Shown one piece after another: positions 1,136-27,281 of a stretch of DNA of 29,611 nt. The position numbers were made by a program, and so were the translations under genes. Below the pieces are notes generated by a model. The model had not been told where the DNA came from. It was given only the letters and a program-made list of their open reading frames with translations, and made no database searches. This DNA is from a virus, in IMG/VR virus record IMGVR_UViG_3300042528_000231, positions 1 to 29,611 of that record; one strand, 5' to 3'. Positions within the stretch are counted from its first letter, which is position 1; every line of letters begins with the position of its first letter.

Positions 1136-1591
1136 TTAAAGGTTTGAAGGGTTTTGAAAAGAAATAGATATACTTGATTTTGTCGTTTTTAGGGGCATTA
1201 CAGGCACGATCTCTCCTGTTTGTGGGTCTACTATGGCTGCCTTATCTCGAAGCTTAAAGGCTTGCTTTAAAAGGTCTTGTCGAGCCTTTAGCTGTTCGGT
1301 CAATCCTACGGCAACTTCATCTTTTGAGAAGTCGGGGGAGTCGTAACCATCCCTGAGTTCTATCTTCGCCCCGTAGGCAGTGAATGACTTTTCACCGTAT
1401 CTCGATGCCTGCTCACGGGCTAACTCTTCCGTTTGCGTGATGATAGCTTCCAGGGCTTTGATAACTGCTTTTGCCCGGATATGTACGGCAAAGGGGTCGA
1501 GGTCGCCATCGAGGACTGAGTGGACAACGGAGTTGGAGAAGCGTTCAATATCGGCCTTGGATATATCCTGCGAAATAAGTTCTCTATTCAT
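1136..1591 (-). CDS. ERF-associated phage protein of unknown function
   Basis: 151 residues. The central pattern (helical region, then ASRYGEKSFTAYGAKIELRD, then a charged helix with LKARQDLLKQAFKLRDKAA) matches the general layout of a small protein often found beside ERF or RecT annealing proteins in phages; this is from memory of such neighbourhoods, not a search. The C-terminus ends in a Ser/Thr-rich stretch. The start ATG overlaps the stop of the ERF gene by four bases (ATGA), so the two are probably translationally coupled and work together in recombination. No enzymatic motif is visible. Confidence 0.7.
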   Translation of the reverse strand: MNRELISQDISKADIERFSNSVVHSVLDGDLDPFAVHIRAKAVIKALEAIITQTEELAREQASRYGEKSFTAYGAKIELRDGYDSPDFSKDEVAVGLTEQLKARQDLLKQAFKLRDKAAIVDPQTGEIVPVMPLKTTKSSISISFQNPSNL

Positions 1592-2205
1592 TGGATGTTT
1601 TTAATAAGTTTATCGAGGGTGTTGATACATTCTACCGCCTCATTGAAAGTCAGGTGCTGAAACTTGCGCTCAGCGGATAGCGAGTATTTCTTAACAATAC
1701 CCGAAAGAGCATCAGGGGCTTTAATCTTAATTTCCCCCCACATGCCGTTCATTTCACCCACTTGAGATGGTGTCGCCATAACAGTTCCTTTCGGTGGCGG
1801 TGCAGGGGCTTGTACGGGGGCAGGTCTTTGTTGTGGTTGATTAGTCCTGCCTTGGGCTATATTGCCATCATCATCTTCGGCTTGTAGTGCAAGAAGGGAT
1901 TGAAGTGAATACCTGCGGAAGTAGGTGATTTCAGATCCCAGGTCCTGAGCCTTTAAGTTGCCTGAAAGTTTTAGGCATGAGGTCATCGTTTCACCGGATT
2001 CAACGTGAATGATTTGGGTGCATACCGAGTCGGAGTCAATCGGCTGAAGTATCATCAATCCGTGCTTAGCCATAATCGGTTCAACTTGCTCCAGGATTGA
2101 ATTAATGTCCGCATACTTCTTTTTGAAGAACGGGTTGTCCATGTCCTTTTTGATGGCAGGAAATTCGAGTTTGGCAGCATGAAGTGCCTTGAATAGTGAT
2201 TTCAT
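1588..2205 (-). CDS. erf: ERF-family single-strand DNA annealing protein
   Basis: 205 residues. ERF proteins (P22 Erf type) anneal complementary single strands and promote phage genome circularisation and recombination in the cytoplasm. The family hallmarks are clear: an N-terminal block with NPFFKKKYADINSIL (residues 24-38) and the conserved ITYFRRYSLQSLLALQAEDD block (93-112) followed by DGN. Residues about 116-140 form a Gln/Pro/Ala linker, and the C-terminal 60 residues are a separate helical piece (ALSGIVKKYSLSAERKFQ). Length is normal for the family. It sits mid-operon, coupled to the next gene by an ATGA overlap. Its leader reads AACCTCTTAAACCC before ATG, with no Shine-Dalgarno site. 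Confidence 0.93.
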   Translation of the reverse strand: MKSLFKALHAAKLEFPAIKKDMDNPFFKKKYADINSILEQVEPIMAKHGLMILQPIDSDSVCTQIIHVESGETMTSCLKLSGNLKAQDLGSEITYFRRYSLQSLLALQAEDDDGNIAQGRTNQPQQRPAPVQAPAPPPKGTVMATPSQVGEMNGMWGEIKIKAPDALSGIVKKYSLSAERKFQHLTFNEAVECINTLDKLIKNIQ

Positions 2206-4065: not shown

Positions 4066-4120
4066 CAAAGGTATGCATAAATTTTCAATCCGCAACCACT
4101 TTTGAAAAAAATATTTTAAG
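4066..4120 (-). promoter_or_regulatory. Leftward early promoter, Bacteroidetes type
   Basis: On the minus strand TACCTTTG (4073-4066) is preceded at exactly 19 bases by TTG (4095-4093). Just upstream is the AT-rich block AAAATATTTTTTTCAAAAG (4117-4099), nearly the same as in the two rightward early promoters. It drives the 4025-to-1 operon. The TCGTCA array begins about 13 bases further upstream. Confidence 0.8.
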
Positions 4121-4132
4121 TTTTTTTTGAAA

Positions 4133-4237
4133 TCGTCATCAGTCGTCAGGAAACGCACTTTTTGGTAGTCGTCGTCATCAATCGTCATCAGTCGTCATCA
4201 GTCGTCATCAGTCGTCATCAGTCGTCATCAGTCGTCA
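4133..4237 (+). repeat. TCGTCA direct-repeat array 1
   Basis: Nine copies of TCGTCA, all in one orientation, start at 4133, 4143, 4172, 4182, 4192, 4202, 4212, 4222 and 4232. The last seven have an exact 10-base period (unit TCGTCATCAG with one TCGTCATCAA), close to one DNA helical turn. The array lies between the divergent early promoters. The phasing suggests cooperative binding of a protein on one helix face, as operator or replication iterons. The rest of this gene-free stretch (4238-4328) has one AGGAACCA motif at 4307-4314 and nothing else recognisable. Confidence 0.9.
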
Positions 4238-4328
4238 GCTCGTGTATGTATGCGGGTGCGGGTGGTACCTGGATCTGAACCTGAATCAAATATGATGAAA
4301 TGATATAGGAACCAACAAAAAAAAACTT

Positions 4329-4379
4329 AAAAATATTTTTCAAAAAGTATTGTTTATTCAAAACTTATTCATACCTTTG
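4329..4379 (+). promoter_or_regulatory. Rightward early promoter P1
   Basis: AAAAATATTTTTCAAAAAG (4329-4347), TTG (4350-4352), 19 bases, TACCTTTG (4372-4379). This is the Bacteroidetes -33/-7 arrangement with an AT-rich block just upstream. The leader that follows (TGTTCTTTTCTTTAAACC, then TTTAAACCC) leads into the RadC-domain gene at 4421. Confidence 0.85.
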
Positions 4380-4420
4380 TCCTGTTCTTTTCTTTAAACC
4401 TTTTTTAAACCCTTATTATT

Positions 4421-4864
4421 ATGTATTCAAAACAAAAAAAGATCATCAGTGTAGTTTGCGACTCAGGTATTAAAATTGAGTCAGAACAAATTAAAAACAG
4501 TGCAATGAGCGCGGATTTAGCTCGAAAAATGTACGATGATGATATAGACGTAGTAGAATCATTTTATATAATGATCCTCAGTAAATCTAACAAATTAAAA
4601 CATTGGGCTAAAATTTCACAAGGCGGAGTATCCTCAACTGTTGTGGACATTAAGGTTATATGTAAACATGTTATAGACTGTTTGGGATCGTCTGTTATTA
4701 TCGTTCATAACCATCCTTCGGGTTCTTTGCAGCCGTCGGAACCAGATAAACGAATAACAGAAAAAGTAAAAAAGGCTTTAGAAATATTCGACGTTACATT
4801 ATTAGACCATCTAATTTTAACTGAAGATAATTATTTTTCTTTTGCCGATAACGGATTAATTTAA
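4421..4864 (+). CDS. radC: RadC-like JAB/JAMM-domain protein
   Basis: 147 residues, only the C-terminal MPN/JAMM part of RadC-type proteins. The metal-binding signature is complete: Glu46 in VESFYIMIL, then IIVHNHPSGSLQPSEPD with His96, His98, Ser100 and Asp109. The fold normally binds zinc and can act as an isopeptidase; for RadC proteins the biochemical role is unsettled, despite the old repair name. The helix-hairpin-helix region of full-length RadC is absent, as in many RadC copies on phages, plasmids and conjugative elements, where they often sit near anti-restriction genes. It is the first gene of the rightward early unit behind promoter P1, with a leader of repeated AAACCC blocks and ATTATTATG at the start. 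Confidence 0.88.
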   Translation: MYSKQKKIISVVCDSGIKIESEQIKNSAMSADLARKMYDDDIDVVESFYIMILSKSNKLKHWAKISQGGVSSTVVDIKVICKHVIDCLGSSVIIVHNHPSGSLQPSEPDKRITEKVKKALEIFDVTLLDHLILTEDNYFSFADNGLI

Positions 4865-4903
4865 CTTTTTAACCCTTTTAAACCCTTTTAAACCCTTATT
4901 ATT

Positions 4904-5398
4904 ATGAAAACTAAACAAATTAAAATCTTCAGCTTTGAAGAATTAACAAATTCCGCAAAGGATCGCGCATTAAATCAATTTCGATATGTGAATGTCGAGT
5001 ATTTTGATTGGTACCATAGTATTTATGATGAGGCCAAAATGATTGGCATTAAAATAACCGGCTTTGATCTTGATAGGGGATCTTATTGTAGCGGTAAATT
5101 TTTAAGCAACCATTGTAGTATTGATGTAGCTAACAAAATAATGGAGGAACACGGCAAAGACTGTGAAACCTACAAAATAGCTGATAAGTTTTTACAGGAT
5201 TATAATAATTTATCCGAAAATGATGGAGTTACCGAGCTTGATGATAAATTTTTAAACAATATCTTGGAAGAGTATTTAACTCTACTGAAAAATGAATTTG
5301 AGTATCATACCAGCGACGACGCGATATCCGAATGGATTATAAATAATGATATTGTTTTCGACGAATCTGGTGAGGAAATAAAACATGAATTAATTTAA
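4904..5398 (+). CDS. Phage protein of the family often labelled 'antitoxin of TA stability system'
   Basis: 164 residues, acidic. It begins IKIFSFEELTNSAKDRAL and contains EAKMIGIKITGFDLDRGSYC. This layout (an Asn/Ala-rich helix, a YFDWYHSIYDEAK helix, then a GFDLDRGSYxxGKF strand) is typical of a widespread phage and plasmid protein that databases often label as antitoxin of a toxin-antitoxin stability system, a label with little experimental support that I recall rather than searched. It follows the RadC gene after a spacer made of three AACCCTTTT-like blocks. A terminator inside the second TCGTCA array lies 80 bases downstream and probably ends this transcript. Confidence 0.7.
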   Translation: MKTKQIKIFSFEELTNSAKDRALNQFRYVNVEYFDWYHSIYDEAKMIGIKITGFDLDRGSYCSGKFLSNHCSIDVANKIMEEHGKDCETYKIADKFLQDYNNLSENDGVTELDDKFLNNILEEYLTLLKNEFEYHTSDDAISEWIINNDIVFDESGEEIKHELI

Positions 5399-5456
5399 CA
5401 TTTCAACTACTGCTGAACTGCTTATTTGCCCTGTTCTTTCTGAATATAATCTTTAG

Positions 5457-5642
5457 TCGTCAGTCGTCATCAGTCGTCAAAATAGGGCTTAATTGCCCTA
5501 TTTTTTTTTGTCGTCAATCGTCAATAATCGTCAATCGTCAATAATCGTCAATCGTCAATAATCGTCAGTCGTCAATAATCGTCAGTCGTCAATAATCGTC
5601 AGTCGTCAACGGTCGTCAGTCGTCAACGGTCGTCAGTCGTCA
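5457..5642 (+). repeat. TCGTCA direct-repeat array 2
   Basis: Nineteen copies of TCGTCA in one orientation. Three (5457, 5464, 5474) precede a terminator. From 5511 to 5637, sixteen copies alternate at steps of exactly 7 and 10 bases, giving eight composite 17-base units. The spacer in the composite changes from ATAA to ACGG toward the right, and the single linker base from A to G, showing expansion by unit duplication. The array precedes promoter P2 just as array 1 precedes P1. Likely a multi-site binding region (operator or iteron). Confidence 0.92.
5481..5509 (+). terminator. Rho-independent terminator inside array 2
   Basis: AATAGGGC (5481-5488), loop TTAATT, GCCCTATT (5495-5502), then a run of T to 5509. 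It lies downstream of the 4421-5398 genes and between the third and fourth TCGTCA copies of the array, so transcription stops within the array. Confidence 0.88.
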
Positions 5643-5643
5643 A

Positions 5644-5729
5644 AACAGGAACCAGGAACCAGGGACGGAAACAGGAACCAGCCGGAAAAATAGGGATCCA
5701 AACAGGAACCAGCGGAAAAATTAGGGCTG
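5644..5729 (+). repeat. GGAACCAG-type repeats upstream of P2
   Basis: Four GGAACCAG copies at 5648, 5655, 5674 and 5705. The last two belong to a near-tandem 31-base unit, AACAGGAACCAGC(C)GGAAAAATAGGG-like. A related AGGAACCA is at 4307-4314 upstream of P1, and inverted relatives are at 7185-7231. This is a second repeat family beside the TCGTCA arrays, probably regulatory. Confidence 0.75.
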
Positions 5730-5739
5730 AAAAAAAACT

Positions 5740-5790
5740 AAAAATATTTTTCAAAAAGTTTTGCAATTTCAAAACAAGCCCGTATATTTG
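5740..5790 (+). promoter_or_regulatory. Rightward early promoter P2
   Basis: AAAAATATTTTTCAAAAAG (5740-5758), TTG (5761-5763), 19 bases, TATATTTG (5783-5790). The upstream block is identical to that in P1, and the leader (TGTTCTTTTTCTTTTAACC, then TTTAAACCC) also matches P1. It drives 5834-6998. Together with the repeats and terminator it fills the gene-free stretch 5399-5833. Confidence 0.85.
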
Positions 5791-5833: not shown

Positions 5834-6013
5834 ATGAAAAATTACCTCCAAAAACAGGAAGCCCTAAGGGCTTTAAACGTCGACCATGTGACCCCGTGCG
5901 GGTCGTATTTAATCTCTTGCATCCTATGGAATCAGCGTGTAAAACGGATTTATACAGGATATAGCCGGAACCAGGCGATCCAATTATTTAAACAGTTTAT
6001 TTATTCTATTTAA
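5834..6013 (+). CDS. 59-residue basic phage protein of unknown function
   Basis: A short frame from ATG 5834 to TAA 6011-6013, directly behind promoter P2 and its AAACCC leader. It reads MKNYLQKQEALRALNVDHVT at the start and ends with VKRIYTGYSRNQAIQLFKQF before YSI. The C-terminal TGYSRNQAIQLF pattern is like that of small proteins common in Bacteroidetes phages and integrated elements. Basic, with two Cys and no membrane segment. It is followed by a spacer AACCC-TTTCTTTTTTT-AACCC before the next gene, a spacer repeated after the next gene too. Confidence 0.7.
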   Translation: MKNYLQKQEALRALNVDHVTPCGSYLISCILWNQRVKRIYTGYSRNQAIQLFKQFIYSI

Positions 6014-22897: not shown

Positions 22898-22917
22898 TCT
22901 TAGAGTTTGGTAACATT

Positions 22918-22945
22918 AAGAGCTGCCTTATGGCGGCTCTTTTTG
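22918..22945 (+). terminator. Rho-independent terminator after the structural gene
   Basis: AAGAGCTGCC (22918-22927), loop TTAT, GGCGGCTCTT (22932-22941) with one T-G pair, then T. It separates the structural genes from the glycosyltransferase cassette. Confidence 0.88.
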
Positions 22946-22947
22946 TT

Positions 22948-22955
22948 TACTTTTG
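22948..22955 (+). promoter_or_regulatory. Candidate -7 box of the glycan-modification cassette
   Basis: TACTTTTG immediately after the terminator and five bases before ATG 22961, so a leaderless transcript is predicted, as for the terminase unit. No TTG at the -33 spacing. Confidence 0.5.
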
Positions 22956-22960
22956 TCCCT

Positions 22961-23899
22961 ATGAGTACAGCAATCGTTCTTATGGCCTTCGGTAAGAAGG
23001 AATACTATCAGATGGCCTATAATATGGCCTTATCTATCCGAAGGTTTAATAGCTACATCCCGATTCACCTCATCCACGATGATAAGTACAGCCTCCCTGA
23101 CCACAAGTCTTGGGTTTTCAGCATAAGAACCCCTATTGACGAAAGGGATTTATACCAAAATGGGGTGTTCAGTCCTGGTATGGCTAAGCTAAACATAGAC
23201 AGGTATTTAGTCCACAATGTGAACATATACCTCGATGTAGATGGAATTTGCCTTCGCCCATTAGACGAAATAATTAACAAGGCTAATGCCCTAAAAGAAT
23301 GTTTTTATGCTCAGAAGGCACAGGGATTTAGAGGTCAGGATGTTATTCCTATGGGCAACTATAAAAGGGATGGGAATGAGTTCCCTGAAATGCAGTGGGC
23401 AACCTTAGAAAAGATATGGGAATACCACGAAATAAGTGAAGATGCCCTTGTGCCAGCTATAAACTCCTCTTTCCTTGTTCTAAGAAAGGGAGATGACCTC
23501 AATAGATTTTATGAGCAGGCAAGAGAAAATGCTAGAAATGGCGTTCCTTTGAGCGAGTTGTCTATGCCCTGGGGGAATACATATCCCGATGAACTTGCCC
23601 TTAATGTAGCCTGTGGGCAGTTTGGCATAAACCCTGACTTTGGGGGGTATCCGATAATGTTTGCTCACCAGTCTGTGCCCAAAGAGGTGATATATGATGC
23701 TGAAAAAAATCACTGGTTTTTAGGGCTTTATGGAGGCAGGGGGTTCACCTCGGCTGCTATGTGGGAGTTTGCCGACAAAAAGTTAATGGATTACCACAGG
23801 CATATGGGGCTAACGCATGAGTACAAGTGGCATAAAATGTCGGTTGCTAAACACGCCAATAAATCAAGATTGTTAGCAGAAGGGAGGCCGCCAAGATAA
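22961..23899 (+). CDS. GT-A fold glycosyltransferase with DVD motif (cassette gene 1)
   Basis: 312 residues from ATG 22961; an upstream open extension to 22907 runs across a terminator and is rejected. The N-terminus (STAIVLMAFGKKEYYQMAYN) is a nucleotide-sugar binding strand-helix, and NIYLDVDGICLRPLDEI has the DxD metal motif at 92-94. PAINSSFLVLRKG and the later GGRGFTSAAMWEFA are consistent with acceptor-side motifs. The layout resembles GT8-type or related nucleotide-diphosphosugar transferases, but I cannot name the family. It starts a run of six genes with short gaps and overlaps. Confidence 0.78.
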   Translation: MSTAIVLMAFGKKEYYQMAYNMALSIRRFNSYIPIHLIHDDKYSLPDHKSWVFSIRTPIDERDLYQNGVFSPGMAKLNIDRYLVHNVNIYLDVDGICLRPLDEIINKANALKECFYAQKAQGFRGQDVIPMGNYKRDGNEFPEMQWATLEKIWEYHEISEDALVPAINSSFLVLRKGDDLNRFYEQARENARNGVPLSELSMPWGNTYPDELALNVACGQFGINPDFGGYPIMFAHQSVPKEVIYDAEKNHWFLGLYGGRGFTSAAMWEFADKKLMDYHRHMGLTHEYKWHKMSVAKHANKSRLLAEGRPPR

Positions 23900-23901
23900 C
23901 T

Positions 23902-24540
23902 ATGATTTCATTTATTACAAGCTGTAAGGGAAGGCTTCACCACTTAAAGCAGTGTCTGCCAACATGGACTTCTCAAAATGGATTTGAGATAGAGGTTGTC
24001 GTTGTTGATTATGACGACCCTGACAATTCGTTTGACTATGTTCTTAACTTAGGAAACCCGATGGTTAGGGCTGTTAAAGCCCATGATGAAAGCGGGTTCT
24101 TTAATCTTAGCAAGGCTAGAAATATTGGCGCATTAAACGCAGATGACAGGGCTGATATATTTTTTTTCATAGATGCTGATGCTATGCTTACTAATAACAA
24201 CTTCTTAAAAAACCATATTGGGGATGTGTTAGTTGGTGGCAGTTTTTTGAATGGCTGGGGGTATGGAGATGGGACAGGATGCTGTTTAATATGGAAAGAG
24301 CTATTTACGAGAGCAAAAGGGTATAATGAAAATGTTGATGGATGGGGCTTTGAGGACATTGATTTTTACTATCGGGTAGAACGAATGGGATTTCATCAAA
24401 AGCCTTTTATCTGCTGCATTGAAACTATAAAACATTCTGATGACGATAGGGTAGCTTATTACCAAAACAAAGATTTGCAGTACACTAATCTTCAAAACAT
24501 TGACAGAACAAAAAGAAATTTTATTAGTCGCATTGAATAA
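23902..24540 (+). CDS. GT2/GT27-like glycosyltransferase with GWGFEDID motif (cassette gene 2)
   Basis: 212 residues, two bases after gene 1. GT-A architecture: strand MISFITSCKGRLHHLKQCLP, then NLSKARNIGALNADDRADIF, DAD metal motif at 91-93 (FFIDADAML), and the acceptor-side catalytic motif GWGFEDIDFYYR (147-158) that is characteristic of polypeptide-GalNAc and beta-1,4-galactosyl transferase-type domains (GT27/GT7 C-terminal). It therefore probably adds a hexose or N-acetylhexosamine. The C-terminus overlaps the start of the next gene. Short for a full two-domain enzyme, but complete for the catalytic fold. Confidence 0.85.
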   Translation: MISFITSCKGRLHHLKQCLPTWTSQNGFEIEVVVVDYDDPDNSFDYVLNLGNPMVRAVKAHDESGFFNLSKARNIGALNADDRADIFFFIDADAMLTNNNFLKNHIGDVLVGGSFLNGWGYGDGTGCCLIWKELFTRAKGYNENVDGWGFEDIDFYYRVERMGFHQKPFICCIETIKHSDDDRVAYYQNKDLQYTNLQNIDRTKRNFISRIE

Positions 24541-25396
24541 GCCAACTAAAATACGGGTGATAACCAACTGGACAGATAGTTTCTCTATCCACGACAGGAT
24601 TATTGACCAATTTATGACGGCAAAACACTTCAAGGACAATGTAGAGTTCGTTGTTGATGACTCTTACGAATGGCTTGTGGTTTTTAATTCAAAGGGGAAC
24701 TTCGATATTAAAGTGCCCAAAGAAAGGGTTATTGGCTTTATTCAAGAGCCTCCTGACCACAACTTCTTTGATAGGAATATCGGCTCATATTGTTCGGTTG
24801 TTTACACCTGTGCAGAGCCTTATGCATACGGCATAGAGGGCAATCTTGTGGGCTTCCCGATGGGGATGTTCTATCACCTCAATGGAGAGCTTGAGGAGTT
24901 TATGACCGCCCCAAAAAAGGCAGCGCGGATAAGCATGATAACCTCCAACATATCGGGTGGCTTTTACGAATACCGCATACGCTTAGCTCGTGAGCTTGCC
25001 CAAACGGGATGGTGTTCGGTGTATGGCAGGGGGTTAAACTTCAAGGGCGTTAAGGGGGAGTTATCCAACAAGGCTACGGGGCTTTTGCCGTTTCAATTTT
25101 CGGTCTGCATTGAGAACGGCATTTGGGATGATTACATATCGGACAAGATTATAGATGCAGTTCTATGCTCCTGCGTACCTATTTATGTAGGGGCGAGGAA
25201 TATTAAACAGCACGTTCCGTTTGCGATTAGTTTAGAAAACTTTAGGAATCCTAAGTATGCCGTAAAGGAGATAGAGCATATCTTGCAGTCCACTAACTAT
25301 GATGACTTCATTCAGCCGATAAAAGCCTGGAAAAAGAAGTATATGAGTAAACATAATATATACGAGAAAATAAAGGAAACAATACTAAACAACTGA
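24533..25396 (+). CDS. GT10-like fucosyltransferase (cassette gene 3)
   Basis: 287 residues if started at TTG 24533, just before the first strand KIRVITNWTDSF; TTG 24500 would add 11 residues, and no ATG fits. The C-terminal block FQFSVCIENGIWDDYISDKI then DAVLCSCVPIYVGA matches the GDP-fucose binding alpha1 motif of GT10 alpha-1,3/1,4-fucosyltransferases (pattern FxxxxENxxxxDYxTEKxxxAxxxxxVPIYxG). Here the conserved Thr-Glu-Lys is Ser-Asp-Lys. RVIGFIQEPP is a typical upstream GT10-like segment. It should transfer fucose or a related 6-deoxysugar, if the host makes GDP-fucose. Overlaps gene 2 by eight bases. Confidence 0.83.
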   Translation: MNKPTKIRVITNWTDSFSIHDRIIDQFMTAKHFKDNVEFVVDDSYEWLVVFNSKGNFDIKVPKERVIGFIQEPPDHNFFDRNIGSYCSVVYTCAEPYAYGIEGNLVGFPMGMFYHLNGELEEFMTAPKKAARISMITSNISGGFYEYRIRLARELAQTGWCSVYGRGLNFKGVKGELSNKATGLLPFQFSVCIENGIWDDYISDKIIDAVLCSCVPIYVGARNIKQHVPFAISLENFRNPKYAVKEIEHILQSTNYDDFIQPIKAWKKKYMSKHNIYEKIKETILNN

Positions 25397-25399
25397 TTT

Positions 25400-25918
25400 A
25401 TGCACCAGCAACAGGTAGATTTCATAAACGTGGTAAAGGCAGCCTTCCCCGAAATGTTTAAGGGTAAGACAGTTATTGACGTGGGAAGCCAGGATATAAA
25501 TGGCAGTAATTTGCAGTTTTTTGAGGACTGCGAATATCTTGGGATGGATATTGGTGAGGGGAAAAATGTAGATGTTGTAGCATACATTCACGAGTGGATT
25601 GAAAAAACCAAAAAAAGGTTTGATGTGGTTATCTCTGGGGAAATGCTAGAACACGATAAGTATTGGGAACAGAGCATTAAGGCTATGTATAAAGCTTGTA
25701 AGCCAGGGGGACTTATTGTAATTACCTGCGCTGCACCTGGCCGCCCTGAGCATGGCACAAAAAAATCAGAAGGATGGAACTCTCCATTTACAACCGACTA
25801 TTATAGAAATATTTCTAAGGAAGATTTAGAGTCTGCGTTAGAAGGGCTGCCGTTTGAAAGGTGTGAGGCATCTCATCAGGGCTGGGACTTATACTTTTGG
25901 GGAGTTAAGGCCAAGTGA
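25400..25918 (+). CDS. SAM-dependent methyltransferase (cassette gene 4)
   Basis: 172 residues, class I Rossmann fold: motif I KTVIDVGSQDINGS (24-36), acidic residue at the end of strand 2 (YLGMDIGEG, Asp50), motif FDVVISGEMLEHDKYW (74-89) and CKPGGLIVITCAAPGRPEHG (100-119). It resembles Methyltransf_11-type small-molecule enzymes, not DNA methyltransferases, since no NPPY-type motif exists. Placed among glycosyltransferases, it probably methylates a sugar or the glycosylated acceptor. Its stop TGA overlaps the next gene's ATG (TGATG). Confidence 0.87.
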   Translation: MHQQQVDFINVVKAAFPEMFKGKTVIDVGSQDINGSNLQFFEDCEYLGMDIGEGKNVDVVAYIHEWIEKTKKRFDVVISGEMLEHDKYWEQSIKAMYKACKPGGLIVITCAAPGRPEHGTKKSEGWNSPFTTDYYRNISKEDLESALEGLPFERCEASHQGWDLYFWGVKAK

Positions 25919-26670
25919 TGTATATTGGCATAACCACCTTCAAGGAAAGGTTTGAATCCCATTTCATTCCTCTTATGAAAGATTTGAGTGGGTTTAATGT
26001 GATAGTTGCCGTAAATGCGTCTAGCAAAACGGGGTTAGACAATGAATATCGCAGGAAGATGCTTTCCTTTTTGTCTGAACACGACAATGTAAGCCCAATT
26101 TTCTATCAAGAGATGAGGGGATTGGCAAAAATGTGGAATGACCTTGTAGTACATTGCCCAACCTCTCATATCCTTCTATTAAATGATGATGTTCGTATAA
26201 GCAATCCAACGATTCTTATGGACTCTTTATATCAAGTGTCCATAACTAAGTCTAATTTTTTTACTATTAACGGCTCTTTCTCTCATTTCGTTATTGCCAA
26301 ACACACCCTTGCAGAGCTAAACTGGTTTGATGAAAGGTTTTTGGGATTTGGTGAAGAAGATGGGGATATAATTTATAGGCATATAGAGACATACGGATTC
26401 TTCCCGCTATCAATAACATCTTCGCACATACATAATTTAAGCAGCGATGTTAGAGATGAGGGAGTTAAGCCTGGTATAGCTAAATACAGTCTTTTTAATA
26501 GGTGTTTTGCTGGGTTTTATGAGTGCGATATACCTAACCTGCCAAAAAAATATGCTCCCAATGAAGATGGAATATCGGGGATGTTTAGCTCTAAAATGAA
26601 AATACAAATAAATAGTCCAATTCAATATCCACACGAAACATTTTTCAATGAGTTCAAAAAACACCTATGA
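25918..26670 (+). CDS. GT-A glycosyltransferase (cassette gene 5)
   Basis: 250 residues from ATG 25918 (a GTG three bases earlier is less likely). The N-terminal strand MYIGITTFKERFESHFIPLM, metal motif HILLLNDDVRIS (Asp90, Asp91) and FDERFLGFGEEDGDIIYR (137-154) form the GT2-like catalytic set; the last is the acceptor-side EED motif equivalent to that in gene 2. The C-terminal 70 residues (LFNRCFAGFYECDIPNLPKK) are an extra piece of unknown role. Overlaps its neighbours by one and four bases, so it is translationally coupled on both sides. Confidence 0.83.
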   Translation: MYIGITTFKERFESHFIPLMKDLSGFNVIVAVNASSKTGLDNEYRRKMLSFLSEHDNVSPIFYQEMRGLAKMWNDLVVHCPTSHILLLNDDVRISNPTILMDSLYQVSITKSNFFTINGSFSHFVIAKHTLAELNWFDERFLGFGEEDGDIIYRHIETYGFFPLSITSSHIHNLSSDVRDEGVKPGIAKYSLFNRCFAGFYECDIPNLPKKYAPNEDGISGMFSSKMKIQINSPIQYPHETFFNEFKKHL

Positions 26671-27281
26671 AGCAACCTATTGAGTACATTAAAGAGTGCT
26701 TAGAGTCCGTTGAGGAAAGTCTGATAATCGAAATAAACGCAAGGGATGGCTCGGTTACGAGGAAGCTTGCCGAGATACCTGGTTCAGAGGTTCATGCCTT
26801 CGAGCCGTTGGCAGAAGGCACAATACCGAACCTACCCACCAATGTTCAGATGAACTATTGTGCTGTTACGGATAAGGATTCGAGGATGACGATGTGGAGG
26901 CCGACAAAGGGTGAGCGTTATGCCTACAACACTACGACAACTTATGAGGGCTCTATGCCTCCGAGTGTTACATACAGGCATATGGTTGAAGTGCCTACCC
27001 GAAGTCTTGACAGCTATCTTCTGCATAAGCAGTTCACCTACATTGACCTATTGTGGATTGATTGGTACAATGCGGAGCTGACCTTGCTCAAAAACATCCT
27101 GCCTCATACGTCTAATACCAGCTTAATCTTTGTTCGTTGGGGAAATCTGATAGATTTAAATGGGAAGCCTGTTTGCAGGAGGATACTTGATTTGTTGGGC
27201 GATGATTGGAATATATTAGGACTGTGGGATGCTGACATACTGCTCTATAACTGCCGTTTTGTTACTCCAAAGGAAAGTTAA
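26667..27281 (+). CDS. FkbM-like methyltransferase, divergent (cassette gene 6)
   Basis: 204 residues. The FkbM-type motif I is recognisable as SLIIEINARDGSVTRKLAEI with Glu22 and Asp27, followed by SEVHAFEPLAEG (the FEP motif at 45-47), NYCAVTDKDSRMTMW (conserved Ala-x-x-Asp segment), VEVPTRSLDSYL and FTYIDLLWIDWYNAELTLLK. The last is normally L-K-I-D-V-E/Q-G-x-E in the family; here it is WIDWYNAE, so the catalytic surroundings are changed. FkbM enzymes O-methylate sugars or small molecules; this one may have lost activity or changed its substrate. Last gene of the cassette, with a -7 box downstream. Confidence 0.78.
   Translation: MKQPIEYIKECLESVEESLIIEINARDGSVTRKLAEIPGSEVHAFEPLAEGTIPNLPTNVQMNYCAVTDKDSRMTMWRPTKGERYAYNTTTTYEGSMPPSVTYRHMVEVPTRSLDSYLLHKQFTYIDLLWIDWYNAELTLLKNILPHTSNTSLIFVRWGNLIDLNGKPVCRRILDLLGDDWNILGLWDADILLYNCRFVTPKES

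Follow-up and report, generated by a model that had tools for sequence, protein, structure and literature searches.

The window analyzed here is a virus record of 29,611 nucleotides (29.6 kb) with Erf, RadC, terminase, tape-measure, and portal-like genes. Two arrays in it hold 28 exact copies of the hexamer TCGTCA, all on the plus strand (positions 4133 to 4237 and 5457 to 5642; Table 1), and these clustered direct repeats lie beside AT-rich DNA. A recount bore out the coordinates, copy numbers, and single orientation that an earlier note had reported, as well as the perfect alternation of 7- and 10-bp steps in the last 16 copies of array 2. That note treated array 2 as a single row. All 19 of its copies do lie on the plus strand (5457 to 5642), with steps of 7, 10, and 37 followed by the alternation of 7 and 10, but a terminator-like hairpin splits them, giving the order three copies, hairpin, 16 copies, and next promoter. 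The three copies before the hairpin are also present in the relatives L010 and L011.

Table 1. Arrays, predicted control elements, and early genes of the window
Feature	Position	Strand	Description
Array 1	4133..4237	+	Nine exact TCGTCA with steps of 10 and 29 followed by six of 10; flanked by two divergent promoters
Array 2, part a	5457..5479	+	Three TCGTCA (steps 7, 10), before terminator
Terminator-like hairpin	5479..5509	+	Intrinsic type, 10 pairs (5479-5504) with T run; ends the 4421-5398 operon
Array 2, part b	5511..5642	+	Sixteen TCGTCA in strict 7/10 alternation, a 17-bp double unit
Leftward early promoter TTGCGGATTGAAAATTTATGCATACCTTTG	4066..4095	-	Bacteroidota type, -33 TTG / -7 TAnnTTTG; predicted
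Rightward early promoter 1	4350..4379	+	Precedes RadC-like gene; predicted
Rightward early promoter 2	5761..5790	+	Precedes ORF 5834-6013; predicted
RadC-like JAB-domain protein	4421..4864	+	First gene right of array 1; PF04002, E 4.8e-35
Erf-type ssDNA annealing protein	1588..2205	-	Leftward early operon; PF04404, phrog_2324
Small HTH-like protein, 140 aa	2218..2640	-	Leftward early operon; first candidate TCGTCA reader

Counted on both strands, TCGTCA occurs 45 times in the window (33 plus, 12 minus), against an expectation of 9.0 ± 2.8 and a maximum of 18 in 100 dinucleotide shuffles. Twenty-four steps between copies measure exactly 7 or 10, whereas the shuffles gave at most two such steps for any hexamer, and the next-best hexamers of the window by this measure are overlaps of TCGTCA itself. 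Tandem Repeats Finder also recovers the arrays, with repeat units of 10 bp and 17 bp, and identical 10-mers occur within array 1. Isolated copies inside the genes of the window are as frequent as codon usage predicts (12 observed, 12.4 ± 2.7 expected), and those in the relative G001 show a mild excess over the codon expectation (26 versus 15.7; p = 0.007). A coding repeat is ruled out by the intergenic position of the arrays and by step lengths that are not divisible by three. An Rfam search of the window matched no family, and a literature search on the TCGTCA repeat found no description of it.

The window contains exactly three matches to the pattern TTG-N19-TAnnTTTG; all three adjoin arrays, each behind an A-tract block. 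The earlier note saw three near-identical early promoters here. Three are indeed predicted, but with 56 to 69% ungapped identity over 85 bases they are better called similar. The arrays lie almost wholly outside predicted transcripts, beside all three promoters of this class, and array 1, being upstream of two divergent promoters, should be untranscribed. Arrays of the window clade stand 37 to 118 bp from the -33 boxes, not on them; in the window and L010, the copy nearest the leftward -33 box is 37 bp upstream of it, beyond the A-tract.

Several other features lie nearby or elsewhere in the window. Direct repeats (GGAACCAG / CAGGAACCAG) occupy positions 5648 to 5715, between array 2 and the promoter, and similar GGAACCAGG runs are found to the right of the arrays in L010, L011, L127, L128, and L169. 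An alternating purine-pyrimidine tract (GTGTGCGTGCG...) adjoins array 1 in the window (4238 to 4263), L006 (9330 to 9420), L010, and L035, and its length is very different between relatives within the window clade. In the structural region, a run of glycosyltransferase- and methyltransferase-like genes (22907 to 27281) varies in make-up between relatives.

Pattern scans and four protein alignments gathered about 160 distinct contigs. The earlier note had proposed looking for the arrays in related phages, and they recur there: a first tally counted 34 distinct arrays with 355 exact TCGTCA copies, spread over several lineages of related phages that are uncultured and unclassified and probably infect Bacteroidota. 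A search of INPHARED for isolated relatives found none close to the terminase or the array region. In every lineage examined, the position and orientation of the arrays with respect to the leftward early operon are unchanged, and counterparts of array 1 are so placed in L006, L010, L011, L318, L007, G001, and others. Some phages have one array and others two, each placed with a promoter. L127 and L128 repeat the layout of array 2 at their own second array, with a terminator first, then the array, then a promoter; in L143 a terminator is followed by an array.

A near-identical relative, L011, is 99.3% identical to the window over 5.5 kb on the left, yet it has 8 + 8 copies (16) where the window has 9 + 19 (28), with 5 copies at part b of array 2 instead of 16. 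Copy number thus changes fast, and the long row of the window is in part a recent expansion. L010 is also close, L006/L035 and L318 stand at an intermediate distance, and L365, L368, L372, and L376 form a further lineage with terminases 79 to 81% identical where covered. A distant and numerous clade (G001, G002, L007, L008, and L082 to L174) has about 67% nucleotide and 72% terminase identity. Many contigs (L084, L085, L095 to L097, L361) stop just short of the array position, which would be expected if repeats break assembly, so the absence of an array from short contigs is not evidence. The distant clade has two further repeat types. Inverted TGTCC...GGACA palindromes, likely operators of another, dimeric regulator, lie in several copies between the array and the rightward promoter (about 2707 to 2850 in G001 [L184], 6647 to 6780 in L125, and to the right of the array in L323, L354, L008, and G002). 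ATATAG/CTATAT repeats occur in 6 to 9 copies within 180 bp (L122 3757, L131 526, L151 157, and others).

The hexamer stays exact across lineages with less than 70% nucleotide identity, while the spacers differ. This agrees with the constant hexamer and variable spacers described in the earlier note: hexamers with one mismatch number about 22 against 355 exact copies, in a tally of 34 arrays that was seeded on exact copies and favors the hexamer somewhat, and the 5-nt spacer takes at least 17 forms. A de novo count of any hexamer at the same loci also returns TCGTCA, or its one-base rotation, as the dominant noncoding repeat. Steps in the 34 arrays are quantized at 7 (131), 11 (90), 10 (35), 18 (15), 28 (8), 17 (7), and 9 (7), with none of 8 or 12. 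The commonest single step is 7, and steps of 10 and 11 together (125) are about as common; steps of 7, 10 to 11, 14, 17 to 18, and 28 bp lie close to multiples of 3.5 bp. In nearly all relatives the 7 and 10/11 steps are interleaved within single arrays, which lends no support to the earlier proposal that the two spacing classes could bind a row of monomers and a row of dimers; some arrays are nearly 7-only or 11-only.

In relatives, copies also reach the core of the leftward promoter. In the distant clade, L007, L127, and L128 have two copies between -33 and -7 (TGACGATTGACGATATTAACTTTG). One copy lies 3 bp upstream of -33 in L125 and L354, also of that clade (TGACGATGGTTG...TAAnTTTG), with L008 having one at the corresponding place, and L006 and L035 have one directly after the -7 box (TACCTTTGCTGACGA). 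Copies thereby overlap the RNA polymerase footprint in L006, L035, L007, L127, L128, and others, but not in the window or L010. From their placement, such differently positioned, one-orientation copies over the polymerase footprint would have the look of a repressor site.

The arrays strictly accompany one gene, that of the small HTH-like protein. Among nonredundant Gp157 contigs that reach 5 kb or more upstream, 22 carry both the array and the gene, 17 carry neither, and 0 are discordant (Fisher p = 2e-11, shared ancestry ignored); since the contigs share ancestry, this table overstates their independence. Of the 25 array contigs that extend 3.6 kb or more to the left, all have the gene, and the apparently array-less contigs that carry it end before the array position. 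Further, the lineage of L365, L368, L372, and L376 was found by the DNA pattern alone and then proved to carry the gene. Other phages that have genes in common with the array-bearing ones lack arrays. Relatives with the same genes and missing or degenerate arrays, which the earlier note had named as the outcome that would count against function, did not appear among those that carry the HTH-like gene and are long enough.

The HTH-like family is very diverged. Its two main branches are linked by profile comparison (probability 81%, E 1.3e-5) and bridged by the L365/L368/L372/L376 lineage, which matches the window branch at 9e-21 and the distant branch at about 1e-3. The putative recognition helix is not conserved between the most distant branches (VWDHL / IYSHL / VRHCL), while the hexamer is identical. 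At the limits used, the protein encoded at 2218 to 2640 had no match in Pfam, PHROGs, or NCBIfam, and two AlphaFold predictions were of low confidence (45 and 50), so that the HTH assignment follows from sequence pattern only.

Early-region families common to the window clade and G001 comprise Gp157-like, DUF6291/replication-initiation-like, DnaB, and stand-alone DnaA domain IV proteins, two small proteins, a DUF5754 protein, and the HTH-like family. A natural recombinant, G028, separates some of these. It has a DnaA-domain-IV protein 97% identical to that of the array-bearing L323 and keeps two neighboring small genes, whereas its Gp157/DUF6291/DnaB block is that of array-less phages; it lacks the HTH-like gene, and its 30.4 kb contain no TCGTCA pair. 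Because G028 keeps the DnaA-domain-IV protein without an array, we set this protein aside as the determinant, which leaves the HTH-like protein or an alternative in the same block. Stand-alone DnaA domain IV proteins (PF08299) occur in the replication regions of L006 (1330 to 1782), L036 (5457 to 5909), L183 (11422 to 11943), and L185 (12298 to 12816), and recombination has carried the module into array-less phages (L343/G028). The DUF5754 protein, although conserved, belongs to a family that is found in Vibrio phages and cyanophages as well, and it was rejected as the binder. A double-HTH protein (L098 4271 to 4714) was likewise rejected, having no match in the window clade. This protein and its homologues, found in the distant clade only, have two tandem HTH-like segments, whose recognition-helix residues are conserved at about 25% overall identity.

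We consider it probable, from layout and gene content, that the arrays are multisite operators controlling the early promoters of a phage lineage of Bacteroidota type. The earlier note proposed a phage initiator or regulator; the regulator is the best reading, and the initiator or origin reading is weakened, as G001 shows no GC-skew turn and the DnaA-domain-IV protein is dissociated from the arrays. A phage-encoded DNA-binding protein would recognize each TCGTCA with one protomer (or one dimer), and tandem sites on one strand would let several protomers line up and together occupy the DNA beside the promoters, so that the divergent early promoters would be switched according to the level of the protein. 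Copies inside the leftward promoter core of relatives would block RNA polymerase directly, which makes repression, including self-repression of the operon, the likeliest sign of the effect. If the operator reading is right, there is about an even chance that the binder is the small HTH-like product of the leftward operon, the likeliest candidate, which would then repress its own operon.

A known parallel is Apl of coliphage 186, whose sites at pR-pL are direct repeats, spaced by one helical turn and situated between divergent early promoters; each site takes one protomer, filling is cooperative, and both promoters are repressed (PMC7498355). The TCGTCA arrays resemble it in having several same-orientation sites at early promoters. 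They differ from Apl and from recombination directionality factors of the Xis/Cox type in that the hexamer is exact instead of loose, steps of 7 occur as well, copies reach about 20, and neither an att site nor an integrase was found in the annotated parts of the TCGTCA phages. Unlike Xis/Cox proteins, the candidate at 2218 to 2640 matches no recombination directionality factor model in PHROGs, Pfam, or NCBIfam. The arrays could tentatively be taken further, as a new class of regulatory DNA in which an exact hexamer sits on an approximate one-third-turn lattice and protomers of the HTH-like family wrap around the DNA as a helical array able to accommodate either spacing, silencing early promoters or marking the genome for replication.

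A rather less likely reading is that the arrays are replication-origin iterons bound by a phage initiator (the DUF6291/DnaD-like, DnaA-domain-IV, or HTH-like protein), with the promoter overlap reflecting initiator autoregulation. The two readings are compatible, with the origin the less supported. Iteron origins, such as the lambda O sites and those of theta plasmids, are clusters of direct repeats that sometimes lie over the initiator's own promoter. The TCGTCA repeats do adjoin AT-rich tracts, upstream of an operon that encodes Erf, a replication-initiation-like protein (phrog_270), DnaB, and the DnaA-domain-IV protein (PF08299, E 5e-16 to 1e-22). Their unit, however, is 6 bp rather than about 17 to 22 bp, and the known initiator-like proteins of these phages do not clearly track the arrays: the DUF6291 protein occurs with and without arrays in different phage types, and G028 has no TCGTCA pair despite its nearly identical DnaA-domain-IV protein. 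The arrays are also always placed with a promoter, be there one or two of them. The GC-skew peak that the earlier note suggested looking for did not materialize; in G001, which is apparently complete (44 kb, 99-bp terminal repeat), the cumulative GC skew, a proxy for the replication start, has no extremum at the array, and the AT-skew minimum at that place tracks gene orientation and divergent transcription. Compared by eye, N(A/T)ATCGTCA shares as many as 7 of 9 positions with the DnaA box TTATCCACA, in phages that encode DnaA domain IV, but the 355 copies have the core TCGTCA and not the TCCACA of the consensus TTATNCACA, and two central positions differ throughout.

It is unlikely that a Bacteroidota host regulator reads the arrays, the phages having hosts rather than a binder in common. 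Such a regulator would explain how the hexamer stays unchanged despite strongly diverged phage HTH-like proteins. However, the arrays strictly co-occur with one phage gene and are absent from other gene-sharing phages, and 395 Bacteroidota genomes scanned with a stricter pattern contained no such array, which argues weakly against it.

We give still less credence to a partition, packaging, or DNA-condensation site, akin to a parS/parC-like centromere, in place of a promoter switch. A comparable layout is that of Omega/ParB of pSM19035, where parS consists of 7 to 10 contiguous, nonpalindromic 7-bp WATCACW heptads per site, lying over promoters, with one low-affinity site per protein dimer (PMC9499535). 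Those heptads come in both orientations at a 7-bp pitch only, whereas TCGTCA has one orientation and an additional 10/11 pitch, and its combined 10 and 11 steps, as frequent as those of 7, argue against a 7-bp-only centromere. The candidate proteins match no RHH family, and neither an RHH protein nor a ParA partner is among the families matched in the TCGTCA phages. In ParG/parH-OF of TP228 and in TubR/tubC, short spaced repeats beside the operon they repress act as both operator and centromere (PMC5016525); here, motif and spacing differ, and the proteins searched included no relative of ParF, ParA, ParM, or TubZ, although many small open reading frames match nothing. Because protein family and spacing do not fit, we place the TCGTCA system with neither 186 Apl nor pSM19035 Omega.

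Passive tandem expansion without function, the alternative raised in the earlier note, is highly improbable: array 2 does look locally expanded (8 copies in L011 versus 19), copy number differs between near-identical phages, and array 1 contains identical 10-mers, but motif and spacers do not drift alike, since the hexamer is exact where spacers diverge, the steps are quantized, and position and orientation are fixed.

If the arrays are indeed operators of the early promoters, they would define the early control element of a widespread, unstudied phage group that probably infects Bacteroidota, and would pair it with a candidate protein family for which no annotated match was found. The rule that steps measure 7 or 10/11 but never 8 or 12 would then place a sharp constraint on how a small protein lines up across the faces of the helix.
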